DNA from: Brachybacterium alimentarium
Lineage (GTDB): Bacteria > Actinomycetota > Actinomycetes > Actinomycetales > Dermabacteraceae
NCBI RefSeq assembly: GCF_002332425.1
Contig: NZ_NRGS01000014.1
Coordinates: 124,001 to 188,000, forward strand
Direction of reading: 5' to 3'
Length of the DNA stretch: 64,000 bases
Position numbers and translations under genes: made by a program. This document shows, in pieces, positions 8,602 to 34,742 of this stretch; positions within the stretch are counted from its first letter, which is position 1; each line of letters starts with the position of its first letter. The notes under the pieces are model-generated. The model searched no databases. It was not told the DNA's origin and worked only from the letters and a program-made list of their open reading frames with translations.

Positions 8602-11600
8602 TCACTCCTCGACCGGGACGAATTCCACCGGGGCGACGGAGGAGTACCGGTCCTGCCGGATCGAGACCACGCCGACGCCGCCGATGAACGGGGCCAGCGC
8701 CTGCGGGTTCTTGCCCGGGTTGGCCAGGATCACCTGGAAGCCGAAGTGGCGGAAGGACTCCATCGCTGCGGTGATGAACTTGCCGGCGCCCTTGGAGAAG
8801 GCCTCGTCGATGATGATCGGGGCGTAGCGCGGCACCTCGTGGCCGGTGCCGGCCAGCTGGTAGCGCAGCGCTGCAGCGAGGCAGAACGTGGCCAGGCGCT
8901 CGTTCTGGCCGCCCGAGAGCGGACCGCCGGATTCGTGGGCATGGACCACGGTGCCCTCGGTGTCGACCTCCTCCGCATGGAAGTGCACGTGCCGGCGCAC
9001 ATCGAGGATCACGCGGGAGATCTGGTCGTCCCGGGTGCGGGCGGCGCCGATCATGTCCATCAGGTGGCGCAGCGAGAGGAAGCGCTCCTCGGCGAGGTCC
9101 CGGTCGCGGCTGATGTCGTTCAGCGCGGTGTCCGCGACCGCATCCTCCAGCGCCCGCTTGAACTCATCCAGTGCGGTGAGGTGCACCGGGCGCATCGACA
9201 GCTGCAGGAACCGGCCGGAGTGGAACTCGACCTGGGTCAGCAGCGCGTTGATGCGCTGCAGCCGCTTGCGGATCTCGGCGGGCTCGCGGGCGATCGCGGT
9301 GGCGAGCGCCTGCACGTCGCCCAGGGTGTTGCCGGTGAAGAACTCGAAGAAGCGGTCCTCGACCTCGGGCAGCTTCTCCTCCTCGATCCGCTGCAGGATC
9401 GCGAGGTAGTCGTCGGCCGCTTCGAGCGTCGCTGCGGTGTCCCCCGCCTGGGCGGGCCAGCGGCGGGAGAACTCGCGCATCGCGGTGCGCATGTCCTCCT
9501 CGGCGCGGGAGGTGCGGCGGGTCAGCGCCATCAGCTCGGCGTCCAGGGTCGCCGAGGCGTCCTTGGTGACCTGGTCGATGTTGCCGATCACGAGGCTGGG
9601 GGCGATCGCGGTGAAGCGTTCGGCGAGCTCGGCCTCGACCTCGGGGGCCAGGGACGATTCGGCCACGCGCTCCTTCGCCTCGACCAGCCGCTCCTCGGCG
9701 CGCTCGGTCTGCTCCCCGAGCTTGCCGGCGGAGCGCACCACCTCCAGCAGCTCCTCCTCGGAGGCGGCGATGGAGCTCTCGACGTCGTCGATCTGGCGGG
9801 CCAGCTCGCTGAGCGCGGCGGAGCCGTCCTCCGCGGCGCGCACCATGTCCCGCAGGTTGGCGACGCGTCGGGCGACCGACGCGGCATCGATGTCGTCCCA
9901 GGTGACCTGGCTGATCGACTGCAGCGCGTAGAGGCGCTCGCGGCGCTGCTCGCGCTCGGACTCGACGTCCTTGCGGCGGGCCTGCGCCTCGAACAGCTCC
10001 TGCTCGGCGCGGGTGCGCTCGGCCTCGAACACGGACCGCTTGGCGCGGTTGTCGAAGCCCAGCACCCACTGGGAACGGTCGTTGATCTGGCGGTCGGCGT
10101 TCTTCTCGTGCCGGGTGGCGGAGTGCTTGATCTGGCCCGAGCGCAGCACGGCCCGGTTCAGGCGCGTGAACTCCTCGAGGGTGTCCGCGCAGGTGTAGTC
10201 CATGCGCGAGGCGATCTCGTGGCTCAGCCACACGTGGAACTCGCCGTCCTTGACGTCGAGCTTCGCGGCCAGCGAGCGGTCGTCGATGTTCTTCGCGGGG
10301 CGGCGCAGATCGGTGTTGACGCGGTTGTAGGAGATGCGCCGACGCAGCTTGGTGCGGTCGATCACCGCGGCCACCTCGCGGTAGACCCGATCGGGCACGA
10401 GGATCGAGCGGGCCAGGCCCCGCAGCGCCTGCTCAGCGGCCGCGGTCCATTCCTCCTGGCCCTCGCGCACCTGCAGCAGCTCGGCGGCGAAGGGCAGCTC
10501 GGTGGGGGCGATGCCCACCTCGGAGGCGATGTGATCGCGCAGGGCGATGTCCTCGGAGTGCAGGTTCGAGGCGCGCGTGGTGAGGGACTTCAGCTCCTCG
10601 CGGGTGCGGGCCAGGGTCGCGGTGAGCTCGCGGACGGTCGCCTCGGCCTCCCAGCGGGCCGAATCGGCGCCCTTCTCCTCGGTCTCGAGCGTCTCGCGGA
10701 GCTCCTCGACCTCGCGCTGGAGGGCGAGGAACATGTCCTCACCGGCCGGGGTGCGCAGTTCGACGGTGGCCAGCTGGGAGGCGAACTCGGTGCCGCGCTC
10801 GCGGCGGCGGTCCCGCTCCACCTCGAGGCCGGCGATCTGCTGCTTCCAGTCGTCGATCTCGCCGCCGCCGGCGCGCTTGCGCTGCTCCTTGAGCTGGCCC
10901 AGATCCGCGCGCGCCTCGTTGACGTCCTGCGTGAGGCGGCGCTGCTGGGCACCGAGGCGGTCGCGCTCGAGCTGGAGGCGGCCGGTCTCCTCCCCCAGCA
11001 GGCGCACCAGGTGCTGGGCGGCGTACACGTCGATGTCCGCCCGACGGTCCACGAGCTCTCCGCCGCGCTCGCGCATCGCGGTCCAGTCCTCATGGTTGCC
11101 CCGCAGGCCGCGCAGCAGGTCCCGCTGCTCACGGGCGGTGACCAGCGCCTCGTACACCTCGGAGAGGTTCTGGAAGTTCGCGAGCGCCTGGTCGGCGAGC
11201 TCGAAGGTGCGCGGCGCATCGAGCATGTAGTCGCGCAGGAGGGCGTTGACGTCGCCGAGCTCCTTGGCGGACTGGATCTTGTGCAGCAGCCCCAGGGCCT
11301 TCTCGTCGGGGATGCCCAGCAGCTGGCTGAAGGCGGCGCGGTACTCGCGGAACTGGCGGAAGGTCTCGGTGCCGGGGTGGGCGGCCTCGAGCGCCTTGCC
11401 CTCGATCTGGCTGGAGACGAACTGGCGCAGGTCGGTGACGTCCAGGGGCTTGCGGGCGATGACGTACAGGCTCTTCACGTCGGAGTCGGCGCTGTGGCCC
11501 GCATGGAGCAGGAGCAGGCGGGAGAGCTGGACGGTGCCGCCCATCCCGTCGCCGTAGCGCAGCGTGAGCACCGACAGCGTGGTCTTGTCGCGCAGCACCT

Positions 11601-11988
11601 CCTGGCTGAACTCGCCGGTGGCCTGGTCGTAGTGCATCGCCCAGGCCCCGCGCACGTAGCTGGCCACGGTGCGGCGGTACTTCGAGCGGGCCGGGCCCGC
11701 ATCGGAGGCGGCGGCATTGAACTGCAGCGTGCGCGGCGGCGTCAACAGTGCGCTGATGGCGTCCAGCAGCGTGGACTTCCCGGTGCCGGGCCCGCCGGTG
11801 AGGAAGAAGCCCTTGGGCGAGATCGTCAGGTCATGGGTGCCGTGGAAGGTCCCCCAGTTCGAGATCTGCACAGCGACCAGGCGCCACTGACCCGGATGCG
11901 GATGCTCGGGGTCGGTGCCCACCTGGTCGGTGGGCGCGTCGGTCTCGGGCATGCCCGGGAGATCGAGGGTCTCGGCTGCGGAATTCAC
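8602..11988 (-). CDS. jetC: Wadjet JetC / MksB: SMC-like ATPase
   Basis: A 1128-residue SMC-family ATPase, motor of the Wadjet (JetABCD, equivalent to MksBEFG) complex that extrudes and helps destroy circular plasmids. The N-terminal head contains QISNWGTFHG and Walker A GGPGTGKST (residues 65-73). A long Glu/Arg-rich coiled coil with a hinge occupies most of the middle. The C-terminal head has the ABC signature LSGGQ (about 1024) and Walker B IIIDEAF (about 1058). Length is normal for JetC. The GTG at 11988 overlaps the stop of the Stealth gene as GTGA, but the AGGAG there sits too close; ATG at 11952 is the alternative. JetB and JetA lie on the same strand 16 and 21 kb away. No JetD nuclease follows; a surface protein does. 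Confidence 0.9.
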   Translation of the reverse strand: MNSAAETLDLPGMPETDAPTDQVGTDPEHPHPGQWRLVAVQISNWGTFHGTHDLTISPKGFFLTGGPGTGKSTLLDAISALLTPPRTLQFNAAASDAGPARSKYRRTVASYVRGAWAMHYDQATGEFSQEVLRDKTTLSVLTLRYGDGMGGTVQLSRLLLLHAGHSADSDVKSLYVIARKPLDVTDLRQFVSSQIEGKALEAAHPGTETFRQFREYRAAFSQLLGIPDEKALGLLHKIQSAKELGDVNALLRDYMLDAPRTFELADQALANFQNLSEVYEALVTAREQRDLLRGLRGNHEDWTAMRERGGELVDRRADIDVYAAQHLVRLLGEETGRLQLERDRLGAQQRRLTQDVNEARADLGQLKEQRKRAGGGEIDDWKQQIAGLEVERDRRRERGTEFASQLATVELRTPAGEDMFLALQREVEELRETLETEEKGADSARWEAEATVRELTATLARTREELKSLTTRASNLHSEDIALRDHIASEVGIAPTELPFAAELLQVREGQEEWTAAAEQALRGLARSILVPDRVYREVAAVIDRTKLRRRISYNRVNTDLRRPAKNIDDRSLAAKLDVKDGEFHVWLSHEIASRMDYTCADTLEEFTRLNRAVLRSGQIKHSATRHEKNADRQINDRSQWVLGFDNRAKRSVFEAERTRAEQELFEAQARRKDVESEREQRRERLYALQSISQVTWDDIDAASVARRVANLRDMVRAAEDGSAALSELARQIDDVESSIAASEEELLEVVRSAGKLGEQTERAEERLVEAKERVAESSLAPEVEAELAERFTAIAPSLVIGNIDQVTKDASATLDAELMALTRRTSRAEEDMRTAMREFSRRWPAQAGDTAATLEAADDYLAILQRIEEEKLPEVEDRFFEFFTGNTLGDVQALATAIAREPAEIRKRLQRINALLTQVEFHSGRFLQLSMRPVHLTALDEFKRALEDAVADTALNDISRDRDLAEERFLSLRHLMDMIGAARTRDDQISRVILDVRRHVHFHAEEVDTEGTVVHAHESGGPLSGGQNERLATFCLAAALRYQLAGTGHEVPRYAPIIIDEAFSKGAGKFITAAMESFRHFGFQVILANPGKNPQALAPFIGGVGVVSIRQDRYSSVAPVEFVPVEE

Positions 11989-13538
11989 TCCTGCAGGGTA
12001 CCGAGTTCCACGGGCCTGCGTGGTGCCGACGCCGGCGCCGAGCGCTCCCACGGCGCGGGATACGGCAGGTAGCTGTTCAGGAACGCGCTCAGCTCGCGCC
12101 GGACGTCGTCCGTCGCCGCGCCTTCCTCCTGGTTCAGGCAGAAGGTGTCGTAGCGGCGCAGCGAGTCCAGGGCGTCGAGCCGCTGCCCCAGTCCGGGTGC
12201 CGCGAGATCGACGTACAGGTAGTTGGGCTGGGCGGGGACGGCCCGGCCCTGGGCATAGGCGTACCAGTGGTGCAGCGACGAGGCGAGGGAGAGGTCGGTC
12301 GGCGAGCGGAACAGGGCGCTGCGGGTGCGGGCCACCGCCTCGGGGTTCTCCCGATCGATCTGCTCGCCGATGGTGCGCAGCTGCGGATGCACGGTGTGAC
12401 GGATCTTCGTGCGCACGGCGAGGCCGAAGCGGGAGGCCAGCAGGTCGCGACCGTTCTTGGCCGCCGCCATGATCGGCAGGTCCCCGCCGGTCACGGGGCC
12501 GGGGTCGATCGGCAGGTCCGAGGGGAAGAACTTCGCGATGCCCTCGGCGGCGAAGAAGTCGCTCGGGTAGGCGATGCGCCCGAACAGCACGTCGTCGTTG
12601 AGATAGAGGTAGTGCTCGGCGAGGCCCGGGATGCGGTGCAGCGCGGATTCGATCGCATGGGAGTTGAAGCGGCTGCCGCCCAGCAGGTCGCGGTGGTCCA
12701 CGATCCGGATCCGGGGGTCCTCCCGCATCAGCCACGACGGCACCTGCTGGTCCGTGACGATGTAGATGCGTCGCACCCAGTTCACGTAGCGGTGCACCGA
12801 CCGCAGCGAGAACCGCAGCTCGTCGGAGTTCAGGAAGCGACTCGCATCGACGGCGGAGTCATGGCGCGCAGGCAGGCCCTCGCCGCGCGCGTGCAGTGCC
12901 GCGTCACGGCGCTCCCGCCAGGCCGGATCGGATCCGTCCACCCAGGTGTAGACCAGGTCGATCGGCACGGCCGGCTCCGGGGCGCAGGGCCGACGGGCGT
13001 CGCCCCTCAGGCTCTGCTCGGACAGCGCCGCCCAGTCCTCGGCGGGCACGTGGCGCAGCGCGCCCTGGGAACGGCCGACGTAACGGCCCTGCTCGCGCTC
13101 CAGCACGTCGATCATCACGTCGAGGCCCGCAATGGGCTCGAAGGGTCGGTCTGCGACGGCCAGGTGCGGGCGGGCGATGATCTGCTGGTCGCGGGGCTCC
13201 TCGCGGATCTCCCAGTGGGCGGGGAGGCCGCCGAGCCGGCGACGCACCGCCGTGATCTCGTCGGCGCGCACGGCCAGCCGCCACGGCCGACGTTCGACGG
13301 GCGCGGTGAGGATCGGCTGGTACGGGGCGAGCGCCTGGAGCACCGTCTCGAGGCTCTGCTCACGTTCGGCATGCAGATCGGGGGCCTCGAGGGAGCGGGC
13401 CTGCTGGAGTCGCGGTCGCAGTCCGGTCCAGACGTTTCCGGGGTCCGCCGCAGGCAGGAGGGCGCGACCCGACAGGCTCAGCCGACGGGCCGCATCTCCC
13501 CTGTGCAGTTTCGCTGCGATACGCCGGGTCGTGCTCAC
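11985..13538 (-). CDS. Stealth-family sugar-phosphate (capsule/phosphopolysaccharide) transferase
   Basis: A protein of about 517 residues of the Stealth family, whose members transfer hexose-1-phosphate from nucleotide sugars to build phosphodiester-linked glycans. All conserved regions are visible: CR1 DLVYTWVDGSDPAW, CR2 with LNSDELRFSLRSVHRY and IYIVTDQQVP, CR3 with LYLNDDVLFG, and CR4 near the C-terminus. About 230 residues precede CR1, an N-terminal extension typical of actinobacterial members. The GTG at 13538 is preferred; the frame is open back to 13577. It is divergent from the GlfT2-like gene, and its stop overlaps the jetC start by four bases, so jetC may depend on its transcription. 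Confidence 0.88.
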   Translation of the reverse strand: MSTTRRIAAKLHRGDAARRLSLSGRALLPAADPGNVWTGLRPRLQQARSLEAPDLHAEREQSLETVLQALAPYQPILTAPVERRPWRLAVRADEITAVRRRLGGLPAHWEIREEPRDQQIIARPHLAVADRPFEPIAGLDVMIDVLEREQGRYVGRSQGALRHVPAEDWAALSEQSLRGDARRPCAPEPAVPIDLVYTWVDGSDPAWRERRDAALHARGEGLPARHDSAVDASRFLNSDELRFSLRSVHRYVNWVRRIYIVTDQQVPSWLMREDPRIRIVDHRDLLGGSRFNSHAIESALHRIPGLAEHYLYLNDDVLFGRIAYPSDFFAAEGIAKFFPSDLPIDPGPVTGGDLPIMAAAKNGRDLLASRFGLAVRTKIRHTVHPQLRTIGEQIDRENPEAVARTRSALFRSPTDLSLASSLHHWYAYAQGRAVPAQPNYLYVDLAAPGLGQRLDALDSLRRYDTFCLNQEEGAATDDVRRELSAFLNSYLPYPAPWERSAPASAPRRPVELGTLQE

Positions 13539-13611
13539 ACAGCGCAGTCTACGGTCCGCGGGAGGCGGGCCCGCCACAGGGTGCCTCGTGTTCCGGGCCA
13601 GTTCACGTTGC

Positions 13612-13617
13612 TATAGT
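13612..13617 (+). promoter_or_regulatory. Candidate -10 element in the Stealth/GlfT2 divergent region
   Basis: TATAGT in a locally AT-richer patch of the 212-bp region between the divergent starts at 13538 and 13751. It fits the actinobacterial TANNNT consensus for the plus-strand glycosyltransferase operon. No good -35 is seen 16-18 bases upstream. Confidence 0.35.
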
Positions 13618-13750
13618 CCGAGTTCCGCACGCTCCGGACGGTCTCGCTCCTGGCGATCTCCTGTGCGCGGCACCAGCATCCGGCTCGCTGCATCCTCCTC
13701 GGGATCGCGCGCGAGCCCCGTTCCAGCACTCGAGGGAGGGCCGTCATCGC

Positions 13751-15520
13751 ATGAGCTCCGGCCCCCATGCCCCCACGCTCACCCTGGCGACCTTCTCCGC
13801 CGGTGAGCGCGCGTCGCTCTGGGAGCAGGCGTTCCCGGTCGCGGCCTGGCGCACGGTGCTCGGTGCGGGCACGGTGACCGTCCACGTGAACTCCGGCTCC
13901 GGCAGCACGGGCAGCACTGACGCCACTGACGCCACTGACGGTGAGGGCAGCGCTGGCAGCACGGACAGCACGGGCAGCACGGGCAGTGCTGATGGTGCGG
14001 CGCTCGTGCTCATGGGATCCCGTGATGGTCGACGCGAAGCGCTCCGCCCGCTCACCGCCGGCTCCCACGAGATCTGCCTCGCCCGTGAAGAGCACGACTG
14101 GCTGTGGATCGACGGCGACGTGCGCACCGTGGCCTGGACGGTCGAACGGTCCGTCGAGCTCGCGCCCGTCACGGTCGTGATGCCCACCTTCCGCCGCGAG
14201 GAGGACGCGGTCGCGCAGGCGGGACGCTTCGCGCGGATGGAGTGCGTGCACCAGGTGATCGTGGTGGATCAGGGCGGTTCCCTCGCCGAGCATCCCGGTT
14301 TCCTCGCACTCCAGGAGTCCGCCCCCGGTGTGCGCCTGATCTCCCAGCCCAATCTCGGAGGGTCCGGCGGCTACGCCCGCGGGATGCTCTGCTCCCAGGA
14401 GTTCCCGGAGGACTCCGTGCTGCTGTCCGACGACGACGCCGTGATCAGCGAGGAGTCGCTGCTGCGCATGGCCACGTATCAGGCCCTCGCCGCGCAGCCC
14501 ACGATCCTCGGCACTCCGCTGTTCTCCGCGCAGGAGCCGCTGCGCCTGATCGCCCTGTCCGAGGCGGTGCGCGCGAACGACTTCCAATGGCATGCCGCCG
14601 ACGGTGTGCGCGCCCCGGTCGACCTCACCGGCACGTCCCCGGAGGACTGGGACTTCCTGCGTCCCCGTGGGGAGGCGAACTACACCGGTTGGTGGGCGAC
14701 CCTGTTCCCGCCCGGCACCGTCGCAGAACTGGGCCTGCCCGCCCCGTTCTTCCTGAAGTGGGACGACGCCGAGTACGGGCTGCGTGCCACCCGGCGCGGC
14801 TACCGTCATGTGGTGCTGCCGGGCACCAGCGTGCACCATCCGCCGTGGGACGCCTATCGCACCCAGATGTCGTGGACCTCGCGCGTCCTGCACCGCAATC
14901 GCCTGGCCACCGCGGCCGCCTACAGCCCGCGCCGGGGCGTGATCCTCTCCTCGCTGGTGCACCAGTGCAAGCACATCCTCTCCGGCCATCACCTCACCGC
15001 TGCCCTGTGGGACGACGGCATCGAGGGCTTCCTCGCAGGCCCGTCGGCCTGGCTGGGTCATGACCTCGAGCGGGCCCGGGCCGAGGGCCAGGAGATCGTC
15101 ACCCGCTGGCACGAGGACCATCCCGTCGCCGCCTCCGAGCTGCCGCCCGCGCGCCGCGCCCCGCTGCCCTTCGTGCCCGCTGTGCTGCGCGCCGCGCTCC
15201 GCCTGGTGACCCCGGACCGCGCCCCACGCGTGGTCGTCGAGGTCACCGCCGAGGAGCTGCACTGGCACACCACCATGGGCGCCGATGCGTTCGTGGTCAC
15301 CGGCGCGGGCGTCCCGGACGGCACAGCGCATCTCGTGCAGGGGTCCACCGCGCGCAGCCTGCTCCTGGGCACGCTGCGCCGTCATCTGCGCATGGCGCTG
15401 CGCTGGTCCTCGCTGCACCGCCGCTACGAGCGCGACCTGCCGCGCGCCACGACGGAGCAGGCCTGGTCCGCGCTGTTCGACCGCGCCGGTTCGCCGCCCG
15501 AAGCGGAAGGGGGCCGGTGA
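13751..15520 (+). CDS. GlfT2-like galactofuranosyltransferase (GT2)
   Basis: A 589-residue enzyme resembling mycobacterial GlfT2, which adds Galf from UDP-Galf to a growing wall galactan at the inner membrane face. An N-terminal beta-sandwich-like domain (1-135) precedes a GT-A fold starting VTVVMPTFRR (140-149). The metal-binding DDD is at 227-229 in LLSDDDAV, and the acceptor/catalytic loop WDDAEYGLR follows a WWATLFP segment, both typical of the family. The C-terminal 200 residues are helical. Residues 49-81 are a Ser/Thr/Gly/Asp repeat encoded by a minisatellite. Its stop overlaps the start of the CDP-alditol transferase (TGATG), so the two are coupled. The exact sugar is inferred. Confidence 0.85.
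   Translation: MSSGPHAPTLTLATFSAGERASLWEQAFPVAAWRTVLGAGTVTVHVNSGSGSTGSTDATDATDGEGSAGSTDSTGSTGSADGAALVLMGSRDGRREALRPLTAGSHEICLAREEHDWLWIDGDVRTVAWTVERSVELAPVTVVMPTFRREEDAVAQAGRFARMECVHQVIVVDQGGSLAEHPGFLALQESAPGVRLISQPNLGGSGGYARGMLCSQEFPEDSVLLSDDDAVISEESLLRMATYQALAAQPTILGTPLFSAQEPLRLIALSEAVRANDFQWHAADGVRAPVDLTGTSPEDWDFLRPRGEANYTGWWATLFPPGTVAELGLPAPFFLKWDDAEYGLRATRRGYRHVVLPGTSVHHPPWDAYRTQMSWTSRVLHRNRLATAAAYSPRRGVILSSLVHQCKHILSGHHLTAALWDDGIEGFLAGPSAWLGHDLERARAEGQEIVTRWHEDHPVAASELPPARRAPLPFVPAVLRAALRLVTPDRAPRVVVEVTAEELHWHTTMGADAFVVTGAGVPDGTAHLVQGSTARSLLLGTLRRHLRMALRWSSLHRRYERDLPRATTEQAWSALFDRAGSPPEAEGGR
13895..13993 (+). repeat. In-frame minisatellite in the GlfT2-like gene
   Basis: About 99 bases built of 9-base units, mostly GGCAGCACG or GACGCCACT variants, coding for a (G-S-T)(D-A-T)-rich loop. 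Because the unit is a multiple of three, copy number change would alter loop length without a frameshift. Confidence 0.75.
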
Positions 15521-16779: not shown

Positions 16780-16815
16780 GCCTCCGCACCGAGTCGCAGG
16801 CTCGGCGTGCTCAGT
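16775..16815. terminator. Composite hairpin spanning two convergent stop codons
   Basis: ACTGAGC (16775-16781) pairs with GCTCAGT (16809-16815), and an inner CCGAG/CTCGG stem can form between them. The arms contain the stop codons of both convergent genes. The symmetry would serve both strands. Confidence 0.45.
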
Positions 16816-18667: not shown

Positions 18668-18784
18668 CAGCAGGTCACCTTCCGGTCGCAGGGGTCGGGT
18701 GGTCCATCGGCCTCAGCAGGCCGGCAGCGCCACCGACGAGATGCCCTCGCCGCGCCGGGCCGAGAACGGCCCTGCGCACTGCGA

Positions 18785-23967: not shown

Positions 23968-24129
23968 GGCCTTGCTCCAATCTCACCGAGAGCTGTTCCT
24001 CTGCGCATGCAGGGGCCATCGGACTGCCGTTCATCATAGCGAGGGCGACGCTACCTGCCCGTTCACGCGACGGACCTCACGTCGACACTCGGCGACCATG
24101 CCGCTGTCCTCTCCGTCCGCTGGCGGTCC

Positions 24130-26127: not shown

Positions 26128-26222
26128 GGGGGGAAGCTCCCTCAGTTCGCGTTCGTGTGGCGGGATGGTCCGGCTGGAGTTCCGAACGGGCACGTCGAAG
26201 CCGGTATCCTCGGCGTGCCAGA

Positions 26223-26249
26223 TTGTCGGAGGCAAGCCCTCACTATAGG
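26223..26249 (+). promoter_or_regulatory. Candidate promoter of the polymerase gene at 26302
   Basis: TTGTCG (26223-26228) and TATAGG (26244-26249) lie in the 174-bp divergent region. The 15-base spacer is short, so only the -10 is moderately convincing. Confidence 0.3.
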
Positions 26250-26301
26250 AGGCAGAAGTCCCGACGTCCGTACGATCCGCCCACCAAGGAGCCTCTCGGC
26301 G

Positions 26302-28179
26302 ATGACTCAGAACGAAAGCCCAGGCAGCGAAGCTGCCCCCGGACGCCGGATGAGGATCCCCTGGGCCCGCATGGCGGGTCTCCGCAGGCGACTGACCCAG
26401 ACGGTGTTCGCGCTCGCCCCGCTGGTCCTGCTCGCGATCGGGGTGCACCCCGCAATCGCCGCCATCCCAGCTGTCTATCCGTTCTTCATCCTGATCCGCC
26501 GCGGGTACCGCCGTCTGCGCAAGCGTGTGTCACGCACCGCATTGTCGGGTGAGCACGGGATCCGCCTCGCGCTCGCCCTCCTCCCGCTCGGCATCGCCTG
26601 GAGCATGGGCGCCGCTGGGCCTGTCGGCTGGGTGGCACTCAGCCTCTTCACACTGGTGCCCCTGGCCGAGCCGGTCGTCGCCCGGGTCGCCCCAGGGCGC
26701 AAGCTCCGCGTTGAGAACCTTCCCGGCATCACCGACACGCGGCCTCCGCGCCTGCCCGTGAACCTCATCCTCGTCACGGACCTGTCGCTCACGGCCCTCG
26801 CGAGCATTCTGCTGCTGGTCCACGTCCCGGCGGGTGCGCTCCTCCCTCTGCCGATCATCGCGCTGGGCCTGGCTGGGTTCTCCGCACTGGACTCGTTCCA
26901 GCGCATCCGCGAGTCGGTGCACGCGGACAACGACCTCTATGCGGCCGTCGAGGCCTACGACCCCCGGTTCGTGCTGTACTACGGCGTCCCCTCGGGCTCG
27001 TCGTACCAGGTCGGGATGTGGATCGAGTACCTCGAGCGCATCGGCGAGAAGTTCATCGTCGTGCTTCGCCGAACCTCCGCCTTCCGCGAGATCGCGAACC
27101 TCACCGATGCGCCCGTGGTGGTGCGTACGAACATCTGGCAGCTCGACGATGTGATCACGCCGAACATGACCGCTGCGTTCTACGTGAACAACTCCGCCCC
27201 GAACGTTCACCTGGTCCGCTACCCGCACATGATCCATGTCCAGCTGTTGCACGGCGACAGTGACAAGGCTTCGAGCTTCAACCCCGTCACCGCGCTCTAC
27301 GACAAGGTCTTCGTAGCCGGCCAGGCCGCGATCGACCGCTACGAGGACAACGGCGTGAACATCCCGAAGGAGAAGTTCACGATCGTGGGTCGCCCGCAGG
27401 TCGAGACCGTAGAGCAGCAGGGGCCCGAGAACATCCCTGTCCAGACAGTGCTCTACGCCCCCACCTGGGAGGGGCACTACGCAGATACGAACTACGGCTC
27501 GCTGCCGGTGGGGCCGGAGATCATCCGCGAGCTGGTGGCTCGGGAGCGGACGGTCATCTTCCGCCCGCATCCCTTCAGCTACCGCAATCCCGAGGCTGCA
27601 CAGCGCATCCGAGAGATTCGACAGATTCTGACCGCGGACGCGGAGGCAACGGGCCGTGAGCACTTGTTCGGCCGCCCGGCCGAGAAGGACCTCGACGCCT
27701 TCGGCTGCTTCAACGCGGCCGACGCCATGATCTCGGACGTCTCCTCGGTGGTCCCGGACTTCCTGTACTCGGGCAAGCCGTACGGACTGGTCACAATGAC
27801 CTCGACGATCGAGGAGTTCGAGCAGGCGTTCCCGCTCGCGCGCTCCGCCTATGTCATCGATCGCGAGCTGACGAGCCTCGGCGACGCTCTCGACGAGCTG
27901 CTGGTGCACGATTCCAAGGCGGATCAGCGCAAGGCCACCCGCGATCATTACCTCGGCCCGTTCCCGTCCGAGAACTATGCCGATGCCTTCGTCGATGCCG
28001 CGCGACACGTCGTGCTCCATGAGCGCAAGTCGATTGCCGCGCAGAACGCTCCCACCGAGCGTGAGGAGGGAGGCTCCGAGGAGCAGACTTCCGAGGGCCA
28101 GGACTCCCCGAACGCCATCAGCAGCGGCCAGGAGGATGTCGGTGAGGACGACGGACAGGATCAGGAGAGCGAGAACTGA
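26302..28179 (+). CDS. Membrane-anchored CDP-alditol polymerase (TarL/TagF-like)
   Basis: A 625-residue protein with two parts. Residues 30-220 hold about five or six hydrophobic helices, an unusual N-terminal membrane domain for this family. Residues 260-580 are a CDP-glycerol glycerophosphotransferase domain with QLLHGDSDK, FVAGQAAIDRY, VGRPQVE, YAPTWEG, FRPHPF and SDVSSVVPDFL followed by SGKP. The last 40 residues are an acidic Glu/Gln/Ser tail. It should extend the alditol-phosphate chain; with tarI nearby, ribitol is the likely monomer. ATG at 26302 follows AAGGAG by ten bases. It shares the motif set with the gene at 15520, so one may prime and the other polymerise. A strong terminator follows. 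Confidence 0.87.
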   Translation: MTQNESPGSEAAPGRRMRIPWARMAGLRRRLTQTVFALAPLVLLAIGVHPAIAAIPAVYPFFILIRRGYRRLRKRVSRTALSGEHGIRLALALLPLGIAWSMGAAGPVGWVALSLFTLVPLAEPVVARVAPGRKLRVENLPGITDTRPPRLPVNLILVTDLSLTALASILLLVHVPAGALLPLPIIALGLAGFSALDSFQRIRESVHADNDLYAAVEAYDPRFVLYYGVPSGSSYQVGMWIEYLERIGEKFIVVLRRTSAFREIANLTDAPVVVRTNIWQLDDVITPNMTAAFYVNNSAPNVHLVRYPHMIHVQLLHGDSDKASSFNPVTALYDKVFVAGQAAIDRYEDNGVNIPKEKFTIVGRPQVETVEQQGPENIPVQTVLYAPTWEGHYADTNYGSLPVGPEIIRELVARERTVIFRPHPFSYRNPEAAQRIREIRQILTADAEATGREHLFGRPAEKDLDAFGCFNAADAMISDVSSVVPDFLYSGKPYGLVTMTSTIEEFEQAFPLARSAYVIDRELTSLGDALDELLVHDSKADQRKATRDHYLGPFPSENYADAFVDAARHVVLHERKSIAAQNAPTEREEGGSEEQTSEGQDSPNAISSGQEDVGEDDGQDQESEN

Positions 28180-28233
28180 TCCTGTTCAGCTGATCGCTCG
28201 GCGGTCACCCCGTCGAAGCTCTGACACAAGACA

Positions 28234-28267
28234 CTGAGGCCCGGATCCATGTGGATCCGGGCCTCAG
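28234..28267 (+). terminator. Terminator hairpin after the polymerase gene
   Basis: CTGAGGCCCGGATCCA (28234-28249) pairs with TGGATCCGGGCCTCAG (28252-28267), leaving an effective 4-base loop. It lies between the convergent polymerase and jetB genes. Confidence 0.8.
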
Positions 28268-28390
28268 CGCTATATGCCTGGTGTCGCTGTCCTCGTCCGG
28301 AATGTCAGCTGCGTCGGCTTCCGGTCCGGCGTCACGTCTTGGCGTCAGCGCGCCCTGACCATCCGGTCGAACGCTCGCCGCATGTCGCGC

Positions 28391-29089
28391 TCAGACGTCG
28401 TCGGAACCCGCAGCGGGAGTCGGTGACTCGTCGTCGTCCTGAGTCTCGTCGGCCGGATCCTCGAGCCCGCCCACGCCGGCCTCCCGGTACAGCGCGATGA
28501 ACTCGCGGGCGGTGTCCGGGCCGATCATGAGCCGCAGCACCGGGGAGACCTCGTAGTCGTCGCCCTGCTCGTCCAGCAGGCCCGCACGCTGGATCTTGGC
28601 GATCGACGCACGCACCTCCTTGGCGAAGCCGGCCTCGTCGGTGGAGGTGGTGCGGCGATAGGCGGCCAGCGCCTGCTGGACCTCCGCCTCGGAGACCACG
28701 GTGCGCTGGCCGCGGGAGGACTGGGTGAGCAGCATTTGCCGCAGGACCAGCAGGAGCACCGAGTCCAGACGGTTCAGGCCGGTCAGGCGGCGCAGCAGTT
28801 TCGGAGCGTCGGCGTCGGCCTCGCTCTGGCGCACGAAGGCGACCTGGGCGTCGTCGTCCACCACCAGCTCGAGGAAGATATCGGCCAGACGGGTCTCGAT
28901 CGCCGCGCGGTCGCGCAGGAGCTGCGCGTAGCGGGCGGGGTCCCGCCGGCCGTCGAGGAACGGGCCCTGCATGAGGTGCACGAGCACCCGTCGGGACTCG
29001 TCCACGAGCGCGGAGCCGGGCAGGGACGGCGACTCCTCGCCGGGGTCCGGGGCGTCGTCGGCTGCGGTGCGGAACGCTGAGCTGGTCAC
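28391..29089 (-). CDS. jetB: Wadjet JetB / MksE (DUF4194)
   Basis: A 232-residue protein of the DUF4194 family, the kite-like (winged-helix) subunit that binds the JetA kleisin. Family hallmarks: RRVLVHLMQGPFLDG near the N-terminus, FLELVVDDDAQVAFVRQ, the LDSVLLLVLRQMLL helix, and the conserved C-terminal EVSPVLRLM. The ends are acidic and low-complexity. The likely start is GTG at 29089, without a clear ribosome binding site. In canonical systems jetB lies directly between jetA and jetC; here jetA is 4.1 kb upstream and jetC 16 kb downstream on the same strand. It is divergent from a low-complexity membrane-anchored protein. Confidence 0.88.
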   Translation of the reverse strand: MTSSAFRTAADDAPDPGEESPSLPGSALVDESRRVLVHLMQGPFLDGRRDPARYAQLLRDRAAIETRLADIFLELVVDDDAQVAFVRQSEADADAPKLLRRLTGLNRLDSVLLLVLRQMLLTQSSRGQRTVVSEAEVQQALAAYRRTTSTDEAGFAKEVRASIAKIQRAGLLDEQGDDYEVSPVLRLMIGPDTAREFIALYREAGVGGLEDPADETQDDDESPTPAAGSDDV

Positions 29090-29268
29090 AGGGACTCACC
29101 TTACCGGCGACCCCGCGGCGGCGGCGATATCACGGACGTGAACGGGGCCATGACGAGACCCGTGGAGGCGAACTTCGTGCGTTCGGGCGGCAGATCTGGT
29201 GCAATCGTGTCGAGAGCAGGATTCCCTTCGCTCGATCGAGCGGAGGAGCCGATAGCAAGGAGCCGACG

Positions 29269-30942
29269 ATGAACGACCTCCCCATCTCATTGCCCGTCCT
29301 CATCGGAATCATCGTGGTAGTGCTCGTCCTCCTGGTCATTCTGATCGTGGTGGGCGCGCAGTCCTCGAAGCGCCGCAAGGCCCAGCAGCAGGAAGAAGAC
29401 CGTCGGCGCGCCGACGAGCTCCGGCAGGAAGCGCAGGCGAAGGACAGAGCCGTCCAGGAGCGCGACCTGACGGCGAAGGAGTCCGAGCTCGAGGCCGACC
29501 GTGCCCGTCTGGACGCGCAGAAGAAGGCGAAGGCGGCCGAGCAGGAGCAGGTGGCCGCCGAGCGTCGCCGCCAGGAGGCCGATCAGCAGCGTGCGTCGGT
29601 CGAGCAGGAGCGCAGCTCCGTGGATGAGCAGCTCGCCGAGGCGGATCGGCTCGATCCCGATACCCCCGCCGATGGCCGTCGGGCCGCGGCCGGTGGCGCC
29701 GCAGCAGGCGGCGCAGTGGCCGGTGGCACCGCTGCCGGTGCCGCCGCGCACGAGGGCGGTCGCCGCAAGGCCGACGGCCCCGTCCGTGACGAGGCAGGTC
29801 GTGGTGAGCCGGTGCGTGAGGCCGCTGGCCCCGCCGGAGCCGACCCCGGCGCGCACCGTGCCGATCAGCCCGCTCCCGAGCGAGGGGCGGCCCCTGAGCG
29901 GCGTGCCCCGGAGCGCGACGAGGATGCGCTCCGCTCCCCCGATCACCGCGACGCCGGTGCCGGAGCTGTCGGCGGAGCCGGCGCGGCCGGCGCCGGAGCT
30001 GCCGCTGCCCCCGGTGCGGAGGATCGGGACGCATACGGCCGCGGAACGCACGACACCCGTGAGACCCGCGAGACCCGCGATGCTGCCGCGTCCCGCGAGG
30101 GCCGCGGTGCACAGGAACCGCTCGCTCCCCGCGAGGACCGCGGCGAGCCGATCGAGCGTGACCGCTCAGGCCATCCCGGTGCCGGCGCTGCCGGTGCTGC
30201 GGGAGTCGGTGCCGCCGGTGCCGGGACCGCAGGTGCGCCCCCGCGCGATGAGTCGATCGGCCGGGACGCCCGCGCCGAGCAGGCTCCTGCCGGCGACGGA
30301 CCCCGTCAGGGAGAGCCGCTGGATGACGAGACCCTCCGCGATCGCGTCCACCGCGACGACGACGCGGCCAGCGCCCAGGGCCGCGCCGAGACTGCGGAGC
30401 GCGGGAGCGTCGAGGGCCGCGGCGGCAGTGCCCCCGCACAGCCGGCCGATCATCCGGTGCAGCGCTCTGCGCCGAACGATGCCGGTGCTCCGCCGACCGG
30501 TGCCCATGCCGGCGGCGCGGCGGCCGGTGGCGCAGCCGGAGCCGGTGCCGGCGCCGCGGCGCAGCCCACCTCGCGGGAGGACGCCGAGGCCGCACGCTTC
30601 GGCGAGCAGCCCGGACAGGCCTCGCCCTACGGGGCGGGTCAGTACGGGGCGGAGCCGGCCGAGTTCCAGCAGGACGGCTACGACGAGCACATCCGGACCG
30701 TGAACCCGGACGATTCCGGACAGCCGCACCAGGGCCGGCCCCTCACCCGGGACGACGGCGGCCAGACGGAGCCGCGCTTCGAGGACGCCGACGGGAATGT
30801 CCCGCCGAGCGCCCCGGAGTTCCGTGACCCCCGTGAGGAGAATCCGCAGCGGGGCCGTCACGCCGGCGGCCAGGGAATCGAGGGCGAGCGCCTGGACGAC
30901 GGCGAGCGTCTGGACGAGGACGGCCCGGACCTCCGCGGCTGA
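29269..30942 (+). CDS. Low-complexity membrane-anchored protein of unknown function
   Basis: A 557-residue protein I do not recognise. Residues 5-28 form one hydrophobic helix (IVVVLVLLVILIVV). Residues 30-125 are a charged coiled coil rich in Glu, Arg, Gln and Ala. The rest is largely disordered, with Ala/Gly runs alternating with Arg/Asp/Glu stretches, and short internal repeats such as TRETRETR and several AAGGAAAGG-like blocks. The C-terminal 100 residues are acidic with less repetition. The ATG at 29269 follows AAGGAG by about eight bases. It probably projects from the membrane into the cytoplasm. It is divergent from jetB across 179 bases and ends at a strong terminator. Confidence 0.75.
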   Translation: MNDLPISLPVLIGIIVVVLVLLVILIVVGAQSSKRRKAQQQEEDRRRADELRQEAQAKDRAVQERDLTAKESELEADRARLDAQKKAKAAEQEQVAAERRRQEADQQRASVEQERSSVDEQLAEADRLDPDTPADGRRAAAGGAAAGGAVAGGTAAGAAAHEGGRRKADGPVRDEAGRGEPVREAAGPAGADPGAHRADQPAPERGAAPERRAPERDEDALRSPDHRDAGAGAVGGAGAAGAGAAAAPGAEDRDAYGRGTHDTRETRETRDAAASREGRGAQEPLAPREDRGEPIERDRSGHPGAGAAGAAGVGAAGAGTAGAPPRDESIGRDARAEQAPAGDGPRQGEPLDDETLRDRVHRDDDAASAQGRAETAERGSVEGRGGSAPAQPADHPVQRSAPNDAGAPPTGAHAGGAAAGGAAGAGAGAAAQPTSREDAEAARFGEQPGQASPYGAGQYGAEPAEFQQDGYDEHIRTVNPDDSGQPHQGRPLTRDDGGQTEPRFEDADGNVPPSAPEFRDPREENPQRGRHAGGQGIEGERLDDGERLDEDGPDLRG

Positions 30943-30961
30943 CTTCCTCCACTGCTCCACA

Positions 30962-31003
30962 CACTGCGGGCCGGGAACCTTCCGAGGTTCCCGGCCCGCA
31001 GTG
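30962..31003 (+). terminator. Very strong terminator hairpin
   Basis: CACTGCGGGCCGGGAACCT (30962-30980) pairs perfectly with AGGTTCCCGGCCCGCAGTG (30985-31003) around a TCCG tetraloop, 20 bases after the low-complexity gene. Confidence 0.9.
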
Positions 31004-31038
31004 CGTGTGAGGCGTGAGTCGCGTGTGAGGCGTGAGTC
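31003..31038. repeat. Two exact tandem copies of an 18-bp sequence
   Basis: GCGTGTGAGGCGTGAGTC occurs at 31003-31020 and again at 31021-31038, next to the terminator hairpin. Confidence 0.85.
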
Positions 31039-31047
31039 CGCGACGCG

Positions 31048-31278
31048 TCAGGCGCCCTTGCGGACGGTGATCGTCCAGCCGGCCTCGCCCGCGCGGTCGA
31101 AGGCGACCACGTCGTGGCCCGCCTCAGCGGCCCACTGCGGCAGCGAGTCCGTCGCCTGCGTGCAGTCGAATCCGATGATCAGGTCATCGCCGGTGGTCAG
31201 CTGCTCCATCGCGTTCTTCGCGTCGATCAGCGGGAACGGGCAGACGGCGCCGTTGGTCTCGAGGGTGTAAGCGGCCAT
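31048..31278 (-). CDS. tsuB: TusA-family sulfur carrier (TsuB/YeeD-like)
   Basis: A 76-residue protein with the TusA/SirA fold. Cys13 in the motif CPFPLIDAKNAM (CPxP) carries the persulfide or thiosulfonate group. In the characterised pair, YeeD/TsuB works with the membrane protein YeeE/TsuA to take up and process thiosulfate. The ATG at 31278 has an ideal AGGAGG upstream. It lies 74 bases after the transporter gene on the same strand, so the two form an operon. Confidence 0.87.
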   Translation of the reverse strand: MAAYTLETNGAVCPFPLIDAKNAMEQLTTGDDLIIGFDCTQATDSLPQWAAEAGHDVVAFDRAGEAGWTITVRKGA

Positions 31279-31352
31279 GGGGTCCTCCTGGAGTGCAGTG
31301 GCAGTAGTCGTGGGATCGGGAAGTTCGACGGGCTCGATACGCGGGGCGCGGG

Positions 31353-32432
31353 TCAAGCCGCGGGGGTGAGCACGGGGGCGGGACGGTTCGAGGCGGCGGC
31401 CCGCTGCGGGCGCACCAGCAGGAACCAGGCAGCGCCCCAGGTGCCGAGGATGATCGCGATCAGCGACACCCAGCCCTGGTAGCTGAACAGGCTCGTCTCC
31501 ACGAGGGAGTTGCCGATGGTGCAGCCGCCGGCCAGCGCCGCACCGACACCCATCGCGACACCGCCTCCCGCGCTGCGCAGGATGGTCGATGCGTCCGGCA
31601 CGCGCCAGCGGAACTCACCGGCGAGCTTCGCGGCGATGAACGACCCGACCAGGATGCCGAGCACGAGCATCACGGACCAGTCCACGAGGGTCACGTCGCC
31701 GGTGGACAGGAAGGTGACGATCTTGGCCGACGGCGTGGTGATGCCGAGGCCGCCGTTGCGGCCGGCGGCGGTGGAGGCCACCCAGGCGAGGATCGCGATC
31801 AGGCCCAGCAGCACACCGCCCACCCACGGGCTCCAGGGGATGTCGGCGAGGTAGTGGCCGATCCCGGTGCGACGCGCCGGCAGGGAGACGGCGGGCCGGC
31901 CCGCCGAGCGTGCGGCGTTGCGGCGCACCTGCCACACCACGAGCGCGGCGACGAGCCCGGCGAAGACGACCGTCGGCACCCAGACGCTCACGCCGAGGGT
32001 CTCCTGGATCGTGGCGGAGCCGACGGTACGTGCGCGGGCGGCCTCCGTGAAGCCTCCCAGCGGGCCGAACTTCATGACCGCGGCGAACAGGGCGTAGAAG
32101 ATCAGCGCCACCCATGAACCGATCAGTCCCTCGCCGGCGCGGTAGTACGTGCCGGTGGCGCAGCCGCCGGCGAGGATGATGCCCACGCCGAAGATCAGCC
32201 CGCCGCCGATCACGGCCAGCGGTGCGAAGGACGCGGCCTCGGGAGAGAGCACGCCCGCGCTGGTGAGCGCGGCGACCCCGACGGCCTGGATGGCGATCGC
32301 CAGCACGAACGGGGTGAAGTAGCGGGTGGAGCGGGAGAGGTAGATGTCGCGGAAGGCGCCGGTGACGCAGAAGCGGGAGCGCTGCAGCACGTAGCCGAGC
32401 GCAGCGCCGATGAGGAGGCCGGTGAGAATCAT
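31353..32432 (-). CDS. tsuA: Thiosulfate transporter, YeeE/YedE family (TsuA-like)
   Basis: A 359-residue integral membrane protein with about nine to ten helices arranged as two related halves. Cysteines that relay thiosulfate in TsuA are conserved: RSRFC near residue 22, GGCATG in the first half and GGCTIG in the second half. It should import thiosulfate (or a related sulfur species) as a cysteine sulfur source, passing it to the TusA-like protein encoded next. The ATG at 32432 is followed at once by the first helix. An inverted repeat 23 bases upstream may be an operator. Confidence 0.88.
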   Translation of the reverse strand: MILTGLLIGAALGYVLQRSRFCVTGAFRDIYLSRSTRYFTPFVLAIAIQAVGVAALTSAGVLSPEAASFAPLAVIGGGLIFGVGIILAGGCATGTYYRAGEGLIGSWVALIFYALFAAVMKFGPLGGFTEAARARTVGSATIQETLGVSVWVPTVVFAGLVAALVVWQVRRNAARSAGRPAVSLPARRTGIGHYLADIPWSPWVGGVLLGLIAILAWVASTAAGRNGGLGITTPSAKIVTFLSTGDVTLVDWSVMLVLGILVGSFIAAKLAGEFRWRVPDASTILRSAGGGVAMGVGAALAGGCTIGNSLVETSLFSYQGWVSLIAIILGTWGAAWFLLVRPQRAAASNRPAPVLTPAA

Positions 32433-32454
32433 TCGCCCAACGGTAGCTAAGGGA

Positions 32455-32477
32455 TGACATAAGCGGAACCCATGTCA
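32455..32477. promoter_or_regulatory. Inverted repeat upstream of tsuA
   Basis: TGACAT (32455-32460) and ATGTCA (32472-32477) form a perfect 6-bp inverted repeat with 11 bases between, 23 bases before the tsuA start. Position and symmetry suit a repressor site. Confidence 0.4.
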
Positions 32478-32619
32478 CGGTTCATGACCGACTGGCTGCG
32501 CTGCGGAGCCGATGCGGGGACGGCGAGGAGCCGGGAGTCGGCACGCTCGGCGGACGGGAGGCGGGGTAGGGACGGGCAACCGGGGCGACTCGCTCGCATC
32601 CCAGTGCCAGACTTGGCCC

Positions 32620-33045
32620 ATGCCCCCGAATCAGCCGGATCAGCCGGATCAGCCGGATCAGCTGGATCAGCCGCATCAGCCTCGCCCTCGCGCCCGCATG
32701 GACGACGTCACCGTCGAGCGGGTGCTGCGCGTGGTCGAGGCGATCCCGCCTGGCCGGGTCGCGGCCTATGGCGAGGTGGGAGCGATCGTGGGCGTCGGCC
32801 CGCGGCTCGTCGGCCGCATCATGCGCACCTGGGGCTCGGGGGTGCCGTGGTGGCGCGTCACCAACGCCGCAGGCGACCACCCCCTGCTGGCGCGCGCCCT
32901 CCCCCATTGGGAGGCGGAAGGCATCGTGGTGAAGCCCAACGGGCGCGGCTGCCGGATGGCGGAGTTCGGCGCGGACCTCGACCTCCTGGCCGAAGCGGCC
33001 GAGCGCGCCTGCGCAGACCTGGCAGATCTGGCAGATCTGGAATAA
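32620..33045 (+). CDS. Alkyltransferase-like (ATL/MGMT-family) DNA-binding protein
   Basis: A protein of 141 residues with the DNA-binding domain of O6-alkylguanine-DNA alkyltransferase: IPPGRVAAYGEVGAIVG, the Arg-finger helix and PWWRVTNAAGD. The catalytic PCHR motif is PWWR here, so no alkyl-accepting cysteine is present; such ATL proteins flag O6-alkylguanine lesions for nucleotide excision repair. The start is uncertain: ATG at 32620 includes a repeated Gln-Pro-Asp tract, while ATG at 32698 begins right at the conserved domain (MDDVTVERV). The C-terminus ends in a short Ala-Asp-Leu repeat. It is divergent from tsuA and convergent with jetA. Confidence 0.85.
   Translation: MPPNQPDQPDQPDQLDQPHQPRPRARMDDVTVERVLRVVEAIPPGRVAAYGEVGAIVGVGPRLVGRIMRTWGSGVPWWRVTNAAGDHPLLARALPHWEAEGIVVKPNGRGCRMAEFGADLDLLAEAAERACADLADLADLE
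32632..32676 (+). repeat. Five 9-bp repeats at the start of the ATL gene
   Basis: CAGCCGGAT units at 32632, 32641 and 32650 are exact; 32659 (CAGCTGGAT) and 32668 (CAGCCGCAT) are variants. If translated they give a (Gln-Pro-Asp)n tract. Confidence 0.85.
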
Positions 33046-33120
33046 CCGGCAGATCTCAGCGCAGATCCCACGGGGTCGCACCGCGCGCAGGACTGACGCC
33101 GCTGACTCCCTACGGCACGT

Positions 33121-33222
33121 CACGCCACGCCACGCCACGCCACGCCACGGGGACGTCACACCACCGGAACGTCACGCCACGGGAGAGTCACGCCACCAGG
33201 ACGTCACTCCACCGGGACGTCG
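33121..33222. repeat. Pentamer array followed by ~17-bp repeats running into the 3' end of jetA
   Basis: 33121-33150 is CACGC repeated five times plus one CACGG. It is followed by degenerate units of 16-18 bp (G-G-A-C-G-T-C-A-C-x-C-C-A-C-C-type) up to about 33222, so the last codons of jetA, whose stop is at 33204-33206, are part of the array. Confidence 0.75.
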
Positions 33223-34742
33223 TCCAGGAAGTAGAACGAGGGCACCTTCGCGGCGTACTGGTTGCCGTCCAGCTCCTGCCAGCCGACGATCTCGGTGGAG
33301 CCCTCGCGCTCCTGCGCGTAGTTCGTGGCCAGGAACATCAGCCCGATCACGCTGGCCAGCCCCTGCTCGGCGGGCCGGGCGCGCAGCACGTCACCGATCG
33401 AGGCCTGGCCGCTGAGGCCGCGCACCTCGTTCACATGGCCGGTGAGACCCACGATGTCGATGTCATTGGTGCGCACCAGATCCTGCAGCACCTCGATGCT
33501 CAGCGCCGTGGCGTCGTGCACCTCGGCCTCGGCGGGCGCCCCGGGATCGGTGGGGTCCTTCAACCGGTGCTGCGCCACCGACGACAGCTGCACGCGCGAA
33601 AGGTCCAGCTCCATCGGGAACGGGGTGCGCGTGGTGACCTCGTCCTTCTGGGACAGGGCCAGTCCCTGCGCCTCCTGCAGCGCCTCGAGCAGCACGCGGT
33701 GCTGGCGGAAGTCCTGGGAGCGCACGAAACGGGCGAGCGAGCGGTACAGCTCCGTCTTGACGTCCAGCACCTCCTGCGCAGGCTCGTAGAGGTCGCTGAA
33801 CACGTTGGCCAGGCGCTCCCGCTCGCTGCGCTGCAGGGTGCGAGCGAAGTCGCGCTCGAGCAGTCGGTCCACCACCTCCTGGGTGGCGCGGGTCTGCGCC
33901 GGGTCGTTGAGCATCCGGAAGAACGCGGTGAAGGTGCGGCCCACGGTGGACTGCCCCAGCAGGTCGTCGCCGGCGAGCAGCTGCTCGAGGATCTCGCCGC
34001 GCGAGGTCTCCGGGGAGAGGATCTGCTCGCGCAGGTGCAGATCCACGGCGCGCAGGTCCTCGCGGTACTGGAGGAAGTCGCCGGAGAGCTCCGAGGCGAT
34101 CTGGAGGATGTCGCGCAGGCGGTCGGTGGAGGCCTCGGGGCTGGGCAGCAGCAGCTCGCCCTCGGACAGCTCCCGGATCTCGGCCTCGATCCGTTCACGG
34201 CGCCGCTGGAGATCGGCCAGGCGCACGTCGCGGTCCGCTTCCGTCTCCTCGGCGAGGCGCTCGAACTGCTGGACCACGAGGGTCAGGCGCGATTCGGTGG
34301 TGGTGGGCCGGTGCTCCTCGAGCGAGGCGATGAACTGGATCGCGTCGATCGTGGCCGGGGACGGTTCGAAGGTGGTCTCGGTGCGCTGGGGATCATCGCG
34401 CCGGGTCAGGTACCCCTCGCGCACCCAGCCGTCGACGTACTCGGCCGCGGTGCGGCCCCCGGCGGGTGCCGCCTCGCCGTCGGCCTCGCGGGCCTCGGAG
34501 ACGGACTCGTCGTCGTGCAGCAGCGACAGGTGCGCGCCCACGCGTGCGATGAGCTCGCTGCGCGGCAGCCGACGGTCGCCGCCGGGGAACACGGACTGCA
34601 GGATCGCGAGGACGGCGGGCGCCTTGGTCGCGGCGAGCAGGCGCCAGGTGCTGGCCCGACGCAGCTGCTCGTACGTCTCCTTGCGCGCGGAGACGGCGTC
34701 GCTGCGGCGGTCGGTCCACCGGTTCGGCTCGGTCGTGGTCAC
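33204..34742 (-). CDS. jetA: Wadjet JetA / MksF (DUF3375, kleisin)
   Basis: A 512-residue DUF3375 protein, the kleisin that bridges JetC heads and binds JetB. The N-terminal winged-helix region shows the family pattern: a charged helix ending STWRLLAATKAPAVLAIL, then LPRSELIARV and YVDGWVREGYL. After it come TTESRLTLVVQQFERLAEE and a charged coiled coil (LADLQRRRERIEAEIREL). The C-terminal third contains the ATPase-contacting domain with VGLTGHVNEVRG. The GTG at 34742 is the first plausible start; the sequence before it has no good ribosome site. jetB is not adjacent: an ATL gene, a thiosulfate pair and a low-complexity gene intervene. Confidence 0.9.
   Translation of the reverse strand: MTTTEPNRWTDRRSDAVSARKETYEQLRRASTWRLLAATKAPAVLAILQSVFPGGDRRLPRSELIARVGAHLSLLHDDESVSEAREADGEAAPAGGRTAAEYVDGWVREGYLTRRDDPQRTETTFEPSPATIDAIQFIASLEEHRPTTTESRLTLVVQQFERLAEETEADRDVRLADLQRRRERIEAEIRELSEGELLLPSPEASTDRLRDILQIASELSGDFLQYREDLRAVDLHLREQILSPETSRGEILEQLLAGDDLLGQSTVGRTFTAFFRMLNDPAQTRATQEVVDRLLERDFARTLQRSERERLANVFSDLYEPAQEVLDVKTELYRSLARFVRSQDFRQHRVLLEALQEAQGLALSQKDEVTTRTPFPMELDLSRVQLSSVAQHRLKDPTDPGAPAEAEVHDATALSIEVLQDLVRTNDIDIVGLTGHVNEVRGLSGQASIGDVLRARPAEQGLASVIGLMFLATNYAQEREGSTEIVGWQELDGNQYAAKVPSFYFLDDVPVE

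Follow-up and report, generated by a model that had tools for sequence, protein, structure and literature searches.

Several Wadjet-related complexes of bacteria have been described, some in defence and some in chromosome maintenance (articles are cited by PubMed Central accession, each for the part of its text covered here). Enterobacterial MukBEF, a Wadjet-related SMC complex, apparently replaced SMC-ScpAB in an ancestor, and a review has speculated on an origin of both MukBEF and MksBEF in defence systems resembling Wadjet (PMC10586767). MksBEF of Pseudomonas aeruginosa, a Wadjet relative without JetD, has a part in organising and segregating the chromosome (PMC10586767, PMC7485682) and coexists with SMC-ScpAB (PMC7485682). 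In Borrelia burgdorferi, Smc and MksB shape the chromosome with an incomplete set of condensin subunits, in which Smc and ScpA are kept and ScpB, MksE and MksF are missing (PMC10406323). Here, we describe jetA, jetB and jetC of Brachybacterium alimentarium, which lie scattered in a stretch of 64,000 nucleotides (contig NZ_NRGS01000014.1, positions 124,001 to 188,000; the window). It is likely that this JetABC (MksBEF-type) complex has lost its nuclease and become the only recognisable condensin, replacing SMC-ScpAB on the chromosome. No description of such a replacement in Dermabacteraceae or Brachybacterium was found among the matches listed in the open-licence PubMed Central literature.

The locus shares its three core subunits with type I Wadjet (JetABCD) and with MksBEFG of Corynebacterium glutamicum (PADLOC JetA1, 499 bits; JetB1, 192 bits; JetC1, 1171 bits across residues 26-1124), but unlike them it has neither a JetD_C match nor a compact four-gene operon. 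Unlike P. aeruginosa MksBEF, its genes are scattered and no SMC-ScpAB was found in addition to it, and where Borrelia has a partial set, all three Jet subunits are present here. MukBEF is, by name, a different sequence family. JetA matches Pfam PF11855 (DUF3375) over its full length (E 1.5e-133), and a profile of 12 family members recovers JetA from the Protein Data Bank (PDB; E 7e-24). JetB matches PF13835 (DUF4194; E 3.6e-41) and MksE (E 8.6e-9); a solved JetB was not recovered in the PDB by the JetB sequence or by a profile of 13 sequences, and the top PDB folds for its AlphaFold model (mean pLDDT confidence score 54), JetB and MukE, are non-significant (E 0.03 or worse) and lend weak support to its identity. 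The PDB relatives of JetC are JetC chains, e.g., 8dk2 (E 9e-76) and 8as8, and its Walker A, LSGGQ and Walker B cores are kept in 38 of 38 aligned family sequences. The subunits are MksB-, MksE- and MksF-like, the ATPase motifs are intact and MksG is absent. These matches and the coordinates (Table 1) agree with the preliminary description of this DNA, which had read three intact DUF3375, DUF4194 and JetC genes, widely spaced on the minus strand in A-B-C order; the gaps are 4,114 bp between jetA and jetB and 16,402 bp between jetB and jetC. It had also allowed for a second, complete jet operon of which these genes would be degenerate copies. A search of the whole assembly gave no second jet locus, and this possibility was rejected on the single matches of JetA and JetC.

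The replacement reading is carried by components that went unmatched in the relatives. Pfam profile searches covered 36 Brachybacterium genomes and six sister genomes, making 42 Dermabacteraceae, together with 22 relatives from the same order and 14 control genomes (genomes are given below by G numbers and loci by L numbers); drafts, metagenome-assembled genomes (MAGs) and closed genomes are all represented. ScpA was matched in 0/36 Brachybacterium genomes and ScpB in 0/42 Dermabacteraceae, against 22/22 order relatives in each case, whereas the SMC hinge was matched in one of the 42 family genomes and in 21 of the 22 order relatives. The sole family match (G011, 22.5 bits, about 50 residues) is apparently spurious, as it sits in a frame read as a LacI-type regulator. 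In B. alimentarium itself, none of the three components that define canonical SMC-ScpAB was matched. By comparison, a 2013 actinobacterial survey that included Brachybacterium faecium reported Smc, ScpA and ScpB in nearly all actinobacteria and names no exceptions in the part of its text covered (PMC4255298).

It could be argued that SMC-ScpAB is present but too diverged for Pfam profiles, with JetABC merely a second complex: the absence comes from profile searches, the genomes include drafts and MAGs, and the hinge profile likewise failed in a MAG from outside the family (G046). However, the ScpB and hinge profiles fail in 42/42 and 41/42 family genomes and the ScpA profile in 36/36 genomes of the genus, while all three succeed in 21-22 of the 22 order relatives and in 9-11 of the 14 controls, among them C. 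glutamicum, which gave matches for ScpA, ScpB, the SMC hinge and JetD_C. Furthermore, six of the genus genomes are single contigs rated 100% complete (G002, G004, G011, G014, G018, G020). We regard a diverged SMC-ScpAB as very unlikely. A condensin role retained without operon constraint, one of two origins offered by the preliminary description, is supported and, with no SMC-ScpAB found in the relatives covered by the searches, much strengthened, and on the same ground the defence motor is probably the cell's own chromosome organiser.

JetA, JetB and JetC were each matched in all 36 Brachybacterium genomes, although some matches are incomplete (JetA is partial in G001; JetC is fragmented in G003, G006 and G022, and JetB in the last of these). 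Wherever all three genes lie on one contig, which is so in 27 genomes including that of B. alimentarium, they follow A-B-C order on one strand and are split (27/27), with 0.6-73 kb between the A and B matches and 1.9-37 kb between B and C; in the other nine genomes, the genes fall on different contigs and their order is not judgeable. Since the same arrangement recurs across the genus, a chance arrangement is excluded. Orthologous JetC proteins (68-75% identity) occur in Helcobacillus, Dermabacter and the Dermabacteraceae isolates TAE3-ERU5 and TAE3-ERU27, which NCBI taxonomy places in one family with Brachybacterium, and JetABC appears to descend vertically in Dermabacteraceae. The median ratio of nonsynonymous to synonymous divergence (dN/dS), calculated over pairs with dS <1 and including sister rows, is 0.25 for JetA (476/528 pairs), 0.29 for JetB (514/595) and 0.25 for JetC (700/703), and the eight closest JetC pairs give 0.03-0.21. 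The three jet genes evolve under purifying selection.

The preliminary description saw no JetD in the window, and this now extends to the whole assembly, in which a profile search for JetD_C (JetD_N was not searched) gave no match to the Toprim nuclease of Wadjet. JetD_C is likewise absent from 29 of the 36 genus genomes and from all six sister genomes. The profile itself works, as shown by its matches in five congeners (G008, G009, G022, G026, G032) and six order relatives. Each of these five congeners has jetABCD genes side by side in addition to the scattered set, and JetC of these operons is only 32-33% identical to JetC of the window; the two other genus genomes with JetD_C have a lone short frame (G014) and a 28-bit fragment (G020). 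The patchy jetABCD set looks like the defence system, and the scattered set is the core one. Labelling the scattered genes a Wadjet defence system, as was done initially, is not supported, given that B. alimentarium and most of the genus are without JetD_C and that the JetD-bearing Wadjet of the five congeners forms an operon of its own, whose JetC is divergent. The lone JetD_C of G014 (L199, 5203-5841) occupies a short frame next to an ATPase-like gene, distant from the jet genes, and looks like a remnant. In G008, the compact jetABCD operon (contig 1, 2861649-2868364; L089) lies on the opposite strand between jetB and jetC of the scattered set, which makes this gap look like an insertion hot spot.

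A plasmid-defence role could nevertheless survive if JetABC were partnered with a nuclease that escapes recognition and has its gene at another place in the genome. In Wadjet, JetABC senses DNA shape (PMC10586767), and among nucleases the search covered only JetD_C. However, an ordinary JetD at another place should have been picked up, because the JetD_C profile matched the congeners with a jetABCD operon and the order relatives, and the absence of SMC-ScpAB would be left unexplained. In addition, the reported share of bacteria with Wadjet is about 5-10% (PMC10586767), whereas JetABC was matched in all genus genomes searched. On balance, a continuing defence role is unlikely. The idea that family JetB has lost the JetD-contact motif at its N-terminus (IFDR, PMC10586767) was dropped: an acidic LWPGDPG stretch of the compact JetB of G008 is missing from family JetB, but it is also missing from JetB of G040, G045 and G052, all with JetD_C, and a similar stretch is present in JetB of G043 and G049, both without a JetD_C match.

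Several points weigh against JetABC having replaced SMC-ScpAB. Compact jetABC without a JetD_C match is found in G043 and G049 (L139, L140; no jetD is apparent adjoining jetC among the open reading frames (ORFs) listed), and both keep ScpA, ScpB and the SMC hinge, so that replacement does not follow from JetD loss alone. The former sites of smc or scpAB were not located, the ScpA search within the family covered only the genus, and we infer the condensin role from co-occurrence. The highest single-pair dN/dS values reach 0.41 for JetA, 0.60 for JetB and 0.43 for JetC. In G032 (L117 3265-5570, L044), jetA is broken by an IS21-like element, so labelled from its two transposition genes, and the complex is therefore not strictly indispensable. 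JetABC of the jetABCD operon in G032 might cover for the broken gene, and an IstB-like frame of the same element adjoins jetD of that operon; in both cases, the scattered set is open to damage. Frameshifts are present in jetB and jetC of G022, possibly as sequencing errors, because this genome is rated only 85% complete.

The insertion in G032 and the frameshifts in G022 would also suit a decaying defence system that has lost JetD, whose operon is coming apart and whose leftover genes are relics about to disappear, as would the missing JetD_C, the broken operon and the lone JetD_C frame of G014. Yet relics would not be expected to persist so long as three separated genes. All three occur in 36/36 genomes with median dN/dS of 0.25-0.29, the ATPase motif cores are conserved throughout the alignment, and each gene has kept a promoter-like element close to its start. 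We regard decay as very unlikely.

For how the operon came apart, the sister genomes may provide intermediates. In TAE3-ERU5, jetABC is adjacent, with 9 bp between A and B, a one-base overlap of B and C and no jetD, and is flanked by tgt and one small ORF on one side and a CshA-repeat gene on the other. Genes further out are common to TAE3-ERU5 and the window in the same order on both sides, namely an acyltransferase and tgt on the tgt side, and on the other side the surface protein followed by LytR_C-, hexosaminidase-, peptidase-, phosphoesterase- and penicillin-binding-like genes (the last five labels are readings of translations). Because a tight jetABC occupies the same gene neighbourhood there, the window shows this operon pulled apart by insertions, and all three insertions are missing at the corresponding places in TAE3-ERU5. 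This gene-order comparison supports the other origin offered by the preliminary description, an ancestral operon split by insertions.

Across the six sister loci, a homologue of the CshA-repeat gene (28-36% identity) is always the next shared gene past jetC, and tgt precedes jetA in five; the sixth, L068, has neither tgt nor jetA in the stretch covered. Three of the four Dermabacter/Helcobacillus loci (L067, L069, L078) have B and C adjacent with A 2-4 kb off, and in L068 B and C are also adjacent, with no jetA in about 9 kb upstream. The genes in the A-B gap of these lineages are unlike those of Brachybacterium, and A and B may thus have been separated twice, independently. A quick JetC tree (support 85 for the TAE3 fork, long outgroup branches, no Pseudomonas MksBEF included) groups TAE3, Dermabacter/Helcobacillus and Brachybacterium separately, with TAE3 apart, in agreement with the degree of splitting.

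Among 15 Brachybacterium spans compared with the window, an alkyltransferase-like gene lies between A and B in every one, and in seven the B-C gap holds wall-polymer genes resembling the window's; the content of the jetB-jetC insertion varies between species. In the window, a wall-polymer cluster (13751-28179) takes up most of this gap, and from 20 to 28 kb the GC content is lower, at about 62-66%. We take the genes of the cluster to be TagF-like, IspD/TarI-like, SDR/TarJ-like, an ABC transporter and TarS-like.

Each jet gene of the window has a -10-like hexamer a few bases before its GTG start (Table 1). Under a relaxed rule (TANNNT 5-9 bases before an in-frame start lying within 12 codons of the called start), such an element accompanies jetA in 30/30, jetB in 30/30 and jetC in 34/34 Brachybacterium cases, compared with 28/403 other ORFs of the same regions; exactly at the called start, the counts are 30/30, 26/30 and 30/34, compared with 21/403. 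In the sister loci, jetA qualifies in 5/5 and jetB in 3/6, and jetC, which follows jetB there, in 0/6. Leaderless transcripts have been reported for Actinobacteria in the part of the literature covered. We read the TANNNT spacing as that of putative leaderless transcripts, and since a promoter-like element adjoins each start codon, the sequence suggests a simple reason for the break-up, namely that upstream insertions would be harmless. In the compact operon of TAE3-ERU5 (L071, 9264-9278), the stop codon of jetA opens a TAGGGT, also -10-like, 6 bases before jetB, and an internal promoter may therefore predate the split.

Table 1. Features of the split jet locus and its surroundings, in window positions.
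Feature	Position	Strand	Description
CshA-repeat surface protein gene	6611..8575	minus	Pfam; downstream neighbour of jetC, one end of the ancestral block
jetC	8602..11988	minus	1128 amino acids; SMC/MukB-like ATPase
jetB-jetC insertion	11989..28390		Teichoic-acid-like wall-polymer cluster, Stealth gene, ABC/siderophore-interacting-protein gene (Pfam)
TACCCT, -10-like	11995..12000	minus	6 nucleotides before the jetC GTG start (from sequence)
jetB	28391..29089	minus	232 amino acids; KITE-like subunit, DUF4194
jetA-jetB insertion	29090..33203		O6-alkylguanine alkyltransferase-like and YedE-type sulphur-transport genes (Pfam); TusA-like ORF and membrane protein (read from translations)
TAAGGT, -10-like	29098..29103	minus	8 nucleotides before the jetB GTG start (from sequence)
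jetA	33204..34742	minus	512 amino acids; kleisin-like subunit, DUF3375
jetA-to-tgt-side insertion	34743..51395		Beta-galactosidase-like (Pfam); sugar-uptake-like genes (read from translations)
TAGACT, -10-like	34751..34756	minus	8 nucleotides before the GTG of jetA (from sequence); putative leaderless promoter
tgt (tRNA-guanine transglycosylase)	52259..53587	minus	Pfam TGT, E 4e-120; other end of the block

The partition system appears to have been kept. Escherichia coli and its family are without chromosomal par genes (PMC7022226), whereas here ParB persists where it was looked for, with Pfam matches to ParA and ParB in Brachybacterium G034 and to ParB in Dermabacter G060; origin segregation would thus probably still proceed via ParABS. 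Near-exact parS sites (≤1 mismatch) occur in only 11 of the 36 Brachybacterium genomes, compared with 18/22 order relatives and 6/6 sister genomes. Beside parB, nine family genomes (six Brachybacterium and three sisters) carry 8-18 parS-like sites (≤3 mismatches) within about 1-2.7 kb, in regions chosen for holding a near-exact site, so that genomes without one are not covered; shuffled sequence gave no such sites. Among three order relatives, G053 has 10 sites over 5.5 kb and G043 has 6 over 4 kb, nearly all close to exact, and G036 has 3 degenerate sites in 1.2 kb, so that sites of this kind are not wholly special to the family. The arrays were noted in loci L233-L236, L239 and L245-L248, which lie beside parB, and in L216, L217, L221, L223 and L224; that of G034 is located between parB and a thioredoxin-reductase-like gene. 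In G032, the transposase-like ORF of the IS21-like element is also found near the parS region, in two copies. No near-exact parS was found in the B. alimentarium genome, where parB was not located. A scan of chromosome ends (≤2 mismatches), on the assumption that complete chromosomes start at the origin, gave a single weak parS-like site in one Brachybacterium end and one in G036, and was set aside.

Taken as a mechanism, a Wadjet-type motor that goes back to the sensor half of Wadjet would have lost its nuclease, and with the nuclease gone JetABC would no longer cut plasmids. It would then act as an ATP-driven DNA-loop extruder on the chromosome in place of SMC-ScpAB, by analogy with enterobacterial MukBEF; P. 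aeruginosa MksBEF, active on the chromosome next to SMC, is a further precedent. Insertions have opened the operon, each gene carries its own start-proximal promoter-like element, and the complex would be assembled from separately transcribed subunits. Tentatively, and with less confidence than in the replacement itself, we suggest that a Wadjet complex was domesticated as the family's sole condensin independently of MukBEF, that the nuclease was lost before the operon dissolved, and that the complex works with ParB on the dense, degenerate parS-like arrays.

Dermabacteraceae may therefore show the shift from Wadjet to condensin in living relatives, from a compact nuclease-less operon through a partial split to a full split, with no recognisable SMC-ScpAB at any of these three stages. 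The family would make it possible to test whether a Wadjet motor can run a chromosome by itself, what would load the motor, and why an operon can fall apart although its products must assemble together.

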